Shown: piece after piece, positions 11,023-13,268 of the stretch
How the letters are laid out: every line of letters starts with the position of its first letter
Numbering within the stretch: the first letter of the stretch is position 1
NCBI GenBank assembly: GCA_947169395.1
Contig: CAMVPJ010000016.1
Span: forward strand, 1 to 20,869
Length of the DNA: 20,869 bases
Reading direction: 5' to 3'
Origin: an uncultured Caryophanales bacterium
GTDB taxonomy: Bacteria; Bacillota_I; Bacilli_A; RF39; UBA660
The notes under the pieces: generated by a model
The model's input: the letters and a program-made list of their open reading frames with translations, nothing else
What the model was told of the DNA's origin: nothing
Databases searched by the model: none
Position numbers and translations under genes: made by a program

Positions 11023-11728
11023 GAAAATTAAGGGTATTGTTGTAAAAGAAATTGCTTATAAAGATACTAGTAAAATAATTGAGGTATTAACTAATAACGG
11101 AATTTATAGCATAGTAGCTCGTGGTGCAAAAAAGGTAAACAGTTCTTTATTTTTAGGAACTAGTTTTTTGTCATATTCAGAATTTTGTATATATGAAAAA
11201 GAGGATTTATCTACTTTAAAAAGCGTCAGTATAATAAATAGTTTTAAGAATACTTTAAAAGATATAGTAAAACTTGGAGCATCTAGTTACTTAGTTAATC
11301 TATGTATGCAAGTTTATAAACAGAATAATAAAACTGAAATATATAATATACTGCTTACAGGTATTACTAAGATAGATAGTGGTATTAATACTCTAGGTAT
11401 TGTTAATATTATTGAAATTAAATTACTTAAATATTTAGGTTTAAAACTTAATTTAGATGAATGTGTAGTATGTAGTAGTAAAGAGATTAATTCTTTATCA
11501 CTAGATTATTCAGGTTATCTATGTAAGAATTGTTCTAAGGTTAGTACTGATAAGAAGATACTTAAACTAATTAAACTATATGATAAAGTAGACATAAGCA
11601 AATTAGATAGTTTTAATGTTTCTAACGAGTATTTGTTTATACTAAATAGATTTATTGATGAATATTACATGAAATATACAGGTTTATACTTAGATAGTAA
11701 GAAATTTTTTCGTGAAATGTTGTCATAA
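11015..11728 (+). CDS. recO: DNA repair protein RecO
   Basis: RecO loads RecA onto SSB-coated single-stranded DNA with RecR (RecFOR pathway) and anneals strands. The 237-residue protein has an N-terminal OB fold (MIKKIKGIVVKEIAYKDTSK, then YSIVARGAKK), a helical centre, and a zinc-finger segment with Cys150, Cys153, Cys170 and Cys173, a feature of Bacillota RecO. The start is ATG 11015 behind GAGG; a TTG at 11006 in frame lacks a binding site. It overlaps the DUF1653 gene. The order era-yqzL-recO-glyS is the Bacillus arrangement. Confidence 0.93.
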   Translation: MIKKIKGIVVKEIAYKDTSKIIEVLTNNGIYSIVARGAKKVNSSLFLGTSFLSYSEFCIYEKEDLSTLKSVSIINSFKNTLKDIVKLGASSYLVNLCMQVYKQNNKTEIYNILLTGITKIDSGINTLGIVNIIEIKLLKYLGLKLNLDECVVCSSKEINSLSLDYSGYLCKNCSKVSTDKKILKLIKLYDKVDISKLDSFNVSNEYLFILNRFIDEYYMKYTGLYLDSKKFFREMLS

Positions 11729-11732
11729 AATA

Positions 11733-11761
11733 TTTACACAAAAAAAGAAATGTAATATAAT
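11733..11761 (+). promoter_or_regulatory. Sigma-A promoter of the glyS leader
   Basis: TTTACA (11733-11738), a 17-base spacer and TATAAT (11756-11761). The predicted start is about 11768. It begins five bases after the recO stop, so recO cannot contribute to the leader made from this promoter. Confidence 0.75.
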
Positions 11762-11767
11762 ACGTAT

Positions 11768-11875
11768 GAAAGCAATGACCGAGGTGGAAACTCGAGAGCA
11801 ATTACTTAATGAGATTCTAAGTAGGGTGGAACCACGAGTAATTCGTCCCTACACTATAGAATCTCTTTGTTTTTT
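11768..11875 (+). promoter_or_regulatory. Very short T-box riboswitch of glyS
   Basis: AGGGTGGAACCACG (11823-11836) is the T-box sequence. The antiterminator is complete: GTAGGG (11821-11826) pairs with CCCTAC (11847-11852), the bulge begins TGGA (11827-11830), and ACGAG pairs with TTCGT above it. TGGA is complementary to a UCCA 3' end, as expected for bacterial tRNA-Gly. Upstream there is only about 55 bases, with one small hairpin (CGAG/CTCG, 11780-11783/11791-11794) whose loop GTGGAAA contains the glycine codon GGA. The terminator stem GAGATTCTA (11811-11819)/TAGAATCTC (11857-11865) and its T-rich tail enclose the antiterminator. Uncharged tRNA-Gly should raise glyS expression. Confidence 0.85.
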
Positions 11876-11891
11876 AGAAAGGATTGATATT

Positions 11892-13268
11892 ATGGATAAT
11901 AAGAATATGGATATGGAAAAGTTAGTTAATTTTTGTAAACAATATGGTTTTATTTATCAAGGAAGTGAGATTTATGGTGGACTTGCTAATACTTGGGATT
12001 ATGGACCATTAGGTAGCAGACTTAAAAATAATGTAAAAGATGCTTGGAGAAAACGTTTTATTCAAGAGCGTCCTAATGCCTATGAAGTAGATGCTGATAT
12101 TCTAATGCATCCAAGAGTTTGGGAAGCATCAGGACATGTTGAATCATTTGCAGATCCACTACTTGATTGTAAGGAGTGTAAAACAAGACATAGAGCTGAT
12201 AATTTAATTAATGATTTTACTAATAGTAGTATTGGAGATGCGATGAGTAACGAAGAGATGGTAAAATATATTAATGATAATAAAGTACCATGTCCTAAGT
12301 GTGGTAAGACTAATTTTACTGATATTAGACAGTTTAAATTAATGTTTGAAACTCATAGAGGAGTTATACAGGATTCTAAAAGTATTGTATACTTACGCCC
12401 AGAAAACGCACAAGGTGAGTATGTAAACTTTTTAAATGTTGCGCGTAGTATGCGTGCAAAGCTACCATTTAGTATCGGTCAGATTGGTAAAGCATTTAGA
12501 AATGAAATAACTCCAGGTAACTTTACTTTTAGAACTATTGAGTTTGAACAGATGGAATATCAAACATTTTGTAAAGAAGGAACTGATATGGAACTTTATG
12601 AATACTTTAAAGAGTATGGTAAGAAGTTTTATAAGGATTTAGGTTTACCTGAGGAAAAACTAAGATTTCATGATCATGAGAAACTAGCTCATTATGCAAA
12701 AGCAGCATGTGACATTGAATATGAGTTTCCATTTGGTTGGGGAGAGATTAATGGTACTCATAATCGTACTAATTTTGATTTAACTCGTCACCAAGAGTAT
12801 AGTGGTAAATCTATGGAATACCTAGATCCTGATACAAATCAAAAATATATTCCATATATCGTTGAATCTACTTATGGACTAGATAGAACAATACTTGCAT
12901 TACTATTTGATGCATATAAAGTTGAAACACTAGAAGATGGTACAACAAGAGAAGTATTAAAATTAAAAAATTTTCTTGCTCCTTATAAAGCATGTGTCTT
13001 GCCTCTTGTTAAGAAATATCATAGTGAAAAAGCCGATGAGATTTATACTAAATTATCTAAGTGCTTTATGACAGATATTGATTATAGTGGTTCAATTGGT
13101 AAAAGATATAGAAGAGCTGATGTTATAGGTACACCATTTTGTATAACAGTTGATGATGATACTATTAATAATAATACTGTAACAGTAAGATTTAGAGATA
13201 CTATGGAACAAGTTACTATTAATGTTGATGATATTGTTAAATTTGTTGAAGATAAAATTAGATTTTAA
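11892..13268 (+). CDS. glyS: Glycyl-tRNA synthetase, homodimeric type
   Basis: This class II synthetase charges tRNA-Gly. The 458-residue protein is of the eukaryote-like alpha2 type, not the GlyQ/GlyS tetramer of B. subtilis. It has IYGGLANTWDYGPLG near the N terminus (24-41), YLRPENAQGEYVNF after it (167-180), motif 2 FRNEITPGNFTFRTIEFEQM, motif 3 GLDRTILALL and a C-terminal anticodon-binding domain. Two CxxC pairs (Cys93/96 and Cys134/137) form a likely zinc site. The start is ATG 11892, eight bases after AAAGGA; the frame is open further upstream but that region is the T-box leader. It is followed closely by the repeat-protein gene. Confidence 0.96.
   Translation: MDNKNMDMEKLVNFCKQYGFIYQGSEIYGGLANTWDYGPLGSRLKNNVKDAWRKRFIQERPNAYEVDADILMHPRVWEASGHVESFADPLLDCKECKTRHRADNLINDFTNSSIGDAMSNEEMVKYINDNKVPCPKCGKTNFTDIRQFKLMFETHRGVIQDSKSIVYLRPENAQGEYVNFLNVARSMRAKLPFSIGQIGKAFRNEITPGNFTFRTIEFEQMEYQTFCKEGTDMELYEYFKEYGKKFYKDLGLPEEKLRFHDHEKLAHYAKAACDIEYEFPFGWGEINGTHNRTNFDLTRHQEYSGKSMEYLDPDTNQKYIPYIVESTYGLDRTILALLFDAYKVETLEDGTTREVLKLKNFLAPYKACVLPLVKKYHSEKADEIYTKLSKCFMTDIDYSGSIGKRYRRADVIGTPFCITVDDDTINNNTVTVRFRDTMEQVTINVDDIVKFVEDKIRF

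Follow-up and report, generated by a model that had tools for sequence, protein, structure and literature searches.

At least four classes of T-box riboswitch exist, and those specific for glycine can dispense with Stem II because their codon duplex is strong (PMC7583486, PMC10482949, PMC10651847 and PMC7778990, between them). Binding of tRNA is described as augmented by a tip of Stem I that contacts the tRNA elbow, by Stem II, or by both (PMC10482949, 2023), and T-boxes that act on transcription are said in a review generally to require the tip and a long Stem I in order to capture the tRNA in time (PMC7583486). Class II, the type of Bacillus subtilis glyQS, is glycine-specific, lacks Stem II, carries a UGGA bulge and terminates transcription (PMC10482949); it has a long Stem I with an elbow-binding distal tip, and its specifier lies in an internal loop. 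Class III, typified by ileS of Nocardia and Mycobacterium, has a short Stem I without a tip, an apical-loop specifier (PMC10482949) and a K-turn (PMC10651847), but its loop is 5-6 nt long, Stem II is required and regulation is mostly translational (PMC10482949; PMC7583486). Class IV has an intermediate Stem I with its specifier in a side bulge.

The glyS leader analysed here resembles class II in its glycine specificity, its lack of Stem II, its UGGA bulge and its termination of transcription, but it has a Stem I of 28 nt that lacks the elbow-binding tip, a specifier in the terminal loop and a terminator that pairs with the Stem III region. The terminal-loop specifier also separates it from class IV. 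A first-pass annotation, made from the sequence of the window by itself, had likened the leader to the ultrashort ileS T-boxes of Actinobacteria. The analogy is sound for Stem I and fails beyond it, as the ileS leaders need Stem II and are mostly translational, whereas the glyS leader has no room for Stem II, carries a glycine specifier and is closed by an intrinsic terminator (of 149 leaders, 138 show the terminator helix together with a T-run).

Results

Locus and promoter

The window, i.e. the whole stretch of DNA analysed (20,869 nt), is AT-rich and carries truB, ybeY, era, recO and glyS. The leader (about 109 nt, 11767-11875, forward strand, as are all features of the window given below) lies between recO, which stops at 11728, and glyS (11892-13268), and ends 16 nt 5' of the glyS ATG. 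The glyS product is a glycine--tRNA ligase of 458 aa (NF003211, 622.5 bits against a cut-off of 312). A promoter occupies 11733-11761, with TTTACA at -35 (11733-11738), a 17-bp spacer and TATAAT at -10 (11756-11761), and this placement leads to an expected RNA start near 11767. The room 5' of the antiterminator, whose A1 helix starts at 11821, is therefore 54 nt, in line with the roughly 55 nt that the first-pass annotation had allowed for Stem I.

Promoters were sought in 180 nt for 138 of 142 distinct leaders, four being left out as too close to a contig end. The -10 element of the best sigma70-like site ended 6-22 nt 5' of Stem I in 122/138 (127/147 with duplicates and long forms counted in), and the spacing between the two peaked at 12 nt (55 leaders). 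Promoters that adjoin the short Stem I in this way argue against a hidden long Stem I. The alternative, that the leader is a classic glycine T-box with a long Stem I lying upstream and an accidental short hairpin, would agree with the long Stem I of classic glycine T-boxes and of four related glyS leaders (L049, L050, L199 and L209), but between the recO stop and the promoter there are only a few nucleotides and the short stem itself covaries. This alternative is extremely improbable, a full-length Stem I upstream being ruled out by the position of the promoter.

The window gave no Rfam match at gathering scores. Under lax settings RF00230 matched 11703-11853 with 35.7 bits (gathering score 93; E 2.1e-6 for 501 nt), and only the antiterminator end aligned well, this being the part in which the leader is like the family. 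Matches at the RF00230 gathering score were likewise absent from 20 related ultrashort loci. Leaders of this kind are likely to stay unannotated, since they fell below the gathering score at every locus tried (the window and these 20). Taken alone, the fold of the window leader is also modest (-28.6 kcal/mol; z -2.36 against shuffles).

Stem I and the specifier

Stem I spans 28 nt (11772-11799), as placed by sequence and by covariation in alignment A2. At its base is a 2-bp lower stem, GC/GC (11772-11773/11798-11799), paired in 100% of the alignment cells, which forms part of a K-turn (11772-11779/11795-11799) with a bulge at 11774-11776 followed by G11777.A11797 and A11778.G11796. Above this stands a 4-bp upper stem, CGAG/CTCG (11780-11783/11791-11794), with changes on both sides at 4/4 pairs in alignment A2, closed by the 7-nt terminal loop GUGGAAA (11784-11790). 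The specifier GGA (11786-11788), followed by a purine, lies in this loop, where GGN is conserved in relatives. The first-pass annotation had put the 4-bp stem and its loop in the right place and taken them for the sole 5' hairpin, overlooking the lower stem and the K-turn, as well as the family to which the leader belongs and the element with which its terminator competes. A K-turn at the base of Stem I is characteristic of T-boxes; by the usual K-turn rules, alignment A2 has G.A at the first position in 43/46 sequences and A.G at the second in 29/46.

Alignment A2 holds 46 of 63 leaders (62 relatives found by script and the window). The 17 left out by hand are two long forms (L049, L050), near-copies (L003, L004, L037, L042, L077, L079), leaders shifted by MAFFT (L011, L014, L016, L069) and a further five (L005, L028, L053, L061, L072). 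For a structure made up of both stems of Stem I, Stem III, A1 and the A2 helix, the covariation score was 0.363 against 0.181 for shuffled alignments, none of 500 shuffles scoring as high. Cells were paired in 93.3%, against 82.9% in shuffled alignments and 33.6-53.4% when the structure was slid along, the latter with the caveat that a structure drawn from the same sequences tends to beat its slid versions. By this comparison of sequences the predicted leader structure is far above chance. The upper stem differs in length and register between leaders, and for this reason only 73.5% of its cells pair when the register is fixed.

When hairpins were drawn for each sequence separately, GGN lay in a hairpin loop in all 141 distinct leaders (from 151 ultrashort leaders, the loci of GlyS relatives and those of the order sample overlapping), on 76 different stems. 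The specifier was GGA in 117, GGC in 16, GGG in 4 and GGU in 4, so that the commonest codon is GGA and not the classic GGC; the scripts sought [TA]GGN, and this tally also demanded a purine after the codon. A tally that was not dereplicated gave GGA 126, GGC 17, GGG 3 and GGU 4 with L043 unscored, and single cases are thus ambiguous. The base after the codon, on which no demand was made in this second tally, was a purine in 150/150, and conservation of a purine directly after the codon is a known T-box feature (PMC7583486). The base before GG, which the script restricted to U or A, was U in 149/150; L193 has AGGC. Column-based checks found GGN in 89/89 rows of alignment A3, which was fitted to model R1, and in 42/46 rows of alignment A2, the other four being shifted by one base. 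In 138/142 distinct leaders the motif [TA]GGN was enclosed by a stem 3 bp long or longer, compared to 1394/7100 (0.196) shuffles of the same segments. The loop, of 7 nt in the window, is mostly 6-9 nt in relatives. The specifier agrees with the downstream gene, i.e. GGN in 141/141 leaders and glyS in 90/90 loci, and a specifier for any other amino acid was absent from the short class among the loci examined. The earlier proposal of a GGA specifier in a terminal loop is thus borne out by the relatives and by covariation.

Unconstrained minimum free energy (MFE) folds agree less well. For the bare 30-nt Stem I segment, GGN fell in the first hairpin loop in only 61/140 folds, whereas covariation and the per-sequence hairpins favour the short Stem I with apical-loop specifier that marks class III. 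With wobbles allowed, an alternative small hairpin that pairs the codon's own UGG is possible in 118/126 distinct leaders, and a stem enclosing the codon in 125/126; covariation favours the enclosing stem, the invariant UGG being unable to covary. In the window, the lowest-energy fold before completion of the terminator does not show the Stem I drawn here; in it the specifier region is paired with the strand that later becomes a terminator arm.

These folds and the codon-pairing hairpin eased confidence in the sensor reading, and in the new architecture discussed below, slightly down and raised that in a decaying T-box, in which antiterminator and terminator still attenuate and Stem I no longer binds tRNA. 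Such decay would fit the missing Stem II and elbow tip, the absence of the usual Stem III in the window lineage, a codon able to pair inside its own hairpin, and three loci (L015, L017, L038) that keep only a terminator-like hairpin, but compensatory changes together with GGN in all distinct leaders indicate that selection still acts on Stem I, and decay is judged unlikely.

Link, antiterminator and tRNA-Gly

Stem I is followed by a 21-nt link (11800-11820) without Stem II. The span from Stem I to the end of the antiterminator is 79-102 nt in aligned ultrashort leaders, which leaves no room for that element. In most relatives the link contains a Stem III of the form AUUC..GAAU, while the window lineage can form only ACUUA/UAAGU (11804-11808/11818-11822), a weak hairpin (-0.9 kcal/mol) that overlaps A1; in the window and its four nearest relatives ACUUA or AUUUA with UAAGU, around a 9-nt loop, is all that stands for Stem III. 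A permissive rule found a hairpin of at least 4 bp adjoining A1 in 144/149 leaders. Stem III hardly varies in alignment A2 and shows no covariation, and RRRxG, the first part of the T-box motif RRRxG-Stem III-AA, was matched in 36/46 leaders of alignment A2 and 72/89 of alignment A3, the AUGAG of the window being no match. According to the review, the antiterminator alone hardly binds tRNA without Stem III (PMC7583486). A Stem III hairpin was not found in the ultrashort leaders L194, L196, L198, L043 and L055, whose sequences are unlike that of the window. Stem III may have been lost several times.

The antiterminator (11821-11852) consists of A1 (11821-11826/11847-11852), the T-box bulge (11827-11833, with UGGA at 11827-11830) and the A2 helix (11834-11836/11844-11846), all placed by the RF00230 alignment and by covariation in relatives, and the T-box and antiterminator recognised in the first-pass annotation lie where it had put them. 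The antiterminator A2 base pair is A-U in the window and most commonly G-U in relatives. The fourth base of the bulge was A in 134, G in 4 and not located in 4 of 142 distinct leaders. All 22 tRNA-Gly genes found, from 15 of 18 related genomes, end in TCCA and therefore carry U73, to which the UGGA of the window bulge is suited, as had been suggested. Isoacceptors GCC and UCC both occur in these genomes; the search pattern was strict, and a missing isoacceptor is no evidence.

As loop and bulge share UGG, with A after both in the window and U before GG in nearly every leader, the loop UGGN might instead be a second binding site for the acceptor end, serving two tRNA tails or one by turns. The fourth base of the loop, however, may be A, C, G or U though U73 is constant, whereas that of the bulge is A in 134/138 located cases; moreover L193 departs from the U of this motif, and the long forms keep GGA in an ordinary specifier loop. 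This reading is very unlikely, acceptor-end mimicry being ruled out by the variable fourth base, and the loop is best taken as a codon.

Terminator and switch geometry

The 5' arm of the terminator (GAGAUUCUA, 11811-11819) forms 9 pairs with 11857-11865, also in the MFE fold, and the 3' arm runs on into a U-rich tract at 11866-11875 (UUUGUUUUUU, 11857-11875), giving an intrinsic terminator before the Shine-Dalgarno sequence. The 9-bp helix encloses the antiterminator and does not compete with its 3' half, as the first-pass annotation had described. In a set of 149 leaders, with duplicates kept and L067 and L201 left out, the partner of the terminator 3' arm is the Stem III region in 138 and the antiterminator 3' half in 0, ten being weak and one having no T-run. 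The window is among the ten weak cases under this stricter rule because UUUG stands between its helix and the long T-run; a looser rule, by which some T-runs were ended too soon, scored 63/63 as the Stem III type. In the model of the review, the terminator is built from the 3' strands of both A1 and A2 (PMC7583486). Among 30 full-size sibling T-boxes (L081-L110), 12 were of the Stem III type, 14 classical, 3 weak and 1 without a T-run. The geometry that had been called unusual comes from a terminator 5' arm that overlaps the Stem III region and not the antiterminator, and it is not unique: a terminator that pairs with the Stem III region is common to part of the long T-boxes and to nearly all short ones. 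In folds of the window, the terminated form with an intact antiterminator reaches -23.5 kcal/mol, against -13.6 kcal/mol without the terminator, such that the default state should be OFF.

Distribution and target gene

When genome contigs were scanned with GlyS, 348 stretches were confirmed, and the best 80 of the 348 were kept. These are mostly from metagenome-assembled uncultured Bacilli, Bacillales and Erysipelotrichaceae, with some Clostridia, Mollicutes and entries named only 'bacterium'. By script, a T-box with an antiterminator helix and T-run was found 5' of glyS in 62 of the 80 as well as in the window, and not in 18, one of which (L067) has a leader with a broken T-run. Among the best 80 there are thus 61 ultrashort leaders, two long ones (L049, L050) and 17 without a T-box found in the glyS flanks. 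At three loci (L015, L017, L038) a terminator-like hairpin and T-run precede glyS and no T-box was found, as if the attenuator had outlived the sensor. In all, about 141 distinct leaders share the ultrashort layout.

A covariance search in related genomes, proposed in the first-pass annotation, was made with model R1 in 117 genomes from the order of G001, the genome of the nearest relative (locus L001), whose GlyS is 97% identical to that of the window; the order is presumably GTDB RF39. Of the 117 genomes, 89 had a match of at least 54 bits, and 116 had some match at E 0.01. The 89 include one long form (L199), and one ultrashort leader, L201, scored less than 54 bits (49.2 bits). Matches above 66 bits occurred in 38/395 genomes of a class sample and 13/392 of a phylum sample, all already met in the order sample, under strict filters that may lose weak matches. 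The class sample gave three further matches, at 48.6-51.2 bits, all of them long T-boxes; two belong to glyS and one to trpS. Across the samples taken, the ultrashort form was met only in a single order of uncultured Bacilli.

Within 2.5 kb of the leader, glyS was found in 87 of 90 rows (89 loci, L199 included, plus the window), and the other three reach glyS further 3' in the same gene run, behind proS or two other ORFs. Loci L122 and L123, where proS comes first (TIGR00408, 567.9 bits for the L122 copy), and L113 were accordingly rejected as cases of another target, as glyS follows. A candidate second short T-box, G005:C10:45028, was rejected because it precedes tyrS. Of the 21 loci scoring 43-51 bits (L200-L220), 19 precede non-glyS-like ORFs and look full-size, L201 is the ultrashort glyS leader mentioned above and L209 is long. 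One metagenome-assembled genome, G076, holds two different ultrashort glyS leaders (L141 with GGG, L111 with GGA), which points either to a second copy of glyS or to a bin of mixed origin.

The ultrashort glyS form exists alongside full-size T-boxes that serve other amino acids: eight genomes of GlyS relatives gave 45 RF00230 matches above the gathering score, 2-9 each. Model R1 finds 24 of the 30 full-size siblings, only at 25.8-44.5 bits. The long glyS T-boxes (L049, L050, L199, L209) share with the ultrashort form GYGAUGAC in the 5' strand, CGAGC or AGAGC in the 3' strand, GGA and the gene, but their Stem I segment is 97-99 nt, short flanks included, with a distal arm; everything above the specifier loop is missing from the ultrashort form. 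The folds of L049, L050 and L199 place GGA within a 7-by-7 internal loop, on its 3' strand; L209 has it there by sequence, the MFE fold lacking such a loop. Two long forms (L199, L209) come from the order sample, and the GlyS tree places the other two amid members of that sample. Long forms lie inside ultrashort clades of this tree (14 changes over three labels by parsimony, with several nodes weakly supported), from which no direction of change between long and short is claimed.

An arrangement of another kind was seen in L082 (reverse strand), where a full-size T-box (the T-box match, then 1314-1473) is followed by two tRNA-Asn genes, a 99-aa ORF taken for gatC, though without an NCBIfam match at 1e-20, and part of gatA (TIGR00132, 329 bits, below the cut-off of 481). 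Here a T-box appears to lead a transcript that carries the tRNA.

Discussion

The ultrashort glyS leader fits none of the four T-box classes as described and combines features from two of them, the Stem I of class III and the lack of Stem II of class II. From its sequence and that of its relatives, it is very probably a transcription-attenuating T-box with a minimal body that senses uncharged tRNA-Gly. The anticodon of tRNA-Gly would pair with GGA in the terminal loop of the K-turned Stem I, and its UCCA end with the UGGA of the antiterminator bulge, so that an uncharged tRNA would bridge Stem I, the Stem III region and the antiterminator. As the bridging tRNA would hold these parts together, the Stem III strand would be unable to leave for the terminator and polymerase would read into glyS. 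With glycine attached, the 3' end would no longer fit, the Stem III strand would pair with 11857-11865 and transcription would stop. Doing without the elbow tip and Stem II is probably affordable thanks to the G-C-rich duplex between GGN and its anticodon, which would explain why the short form is seen for glycine only.

The leader is probably a new T-box variant and probably represents a new architectural class; no such class was described in the literature searched by title and abstract opening, and older comparative surveys could list such leaders. It is likely, at a lower confidence than the sensor reading, that this is a fifth T-box architecture, glycine-specific and transcriptional, with neither an elbow-binding tip nor Stem II, in which the tRNA would be held only by a 3-bp codon duplex, a 4-bp tail duplex and stacking, the usual Stem III also being gone in several sublineages, including that of the window, and in which the leader would switch when the Stem III strand changes its partner and enters the terminator, instead of when the antiterminator opens.

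A natural element that lacks the tip and Stem II and serves an essential gene in many species would be a minimal sensor. Such a sensor would allow one to ask what tRNA recognition and the sensing of charge really require.
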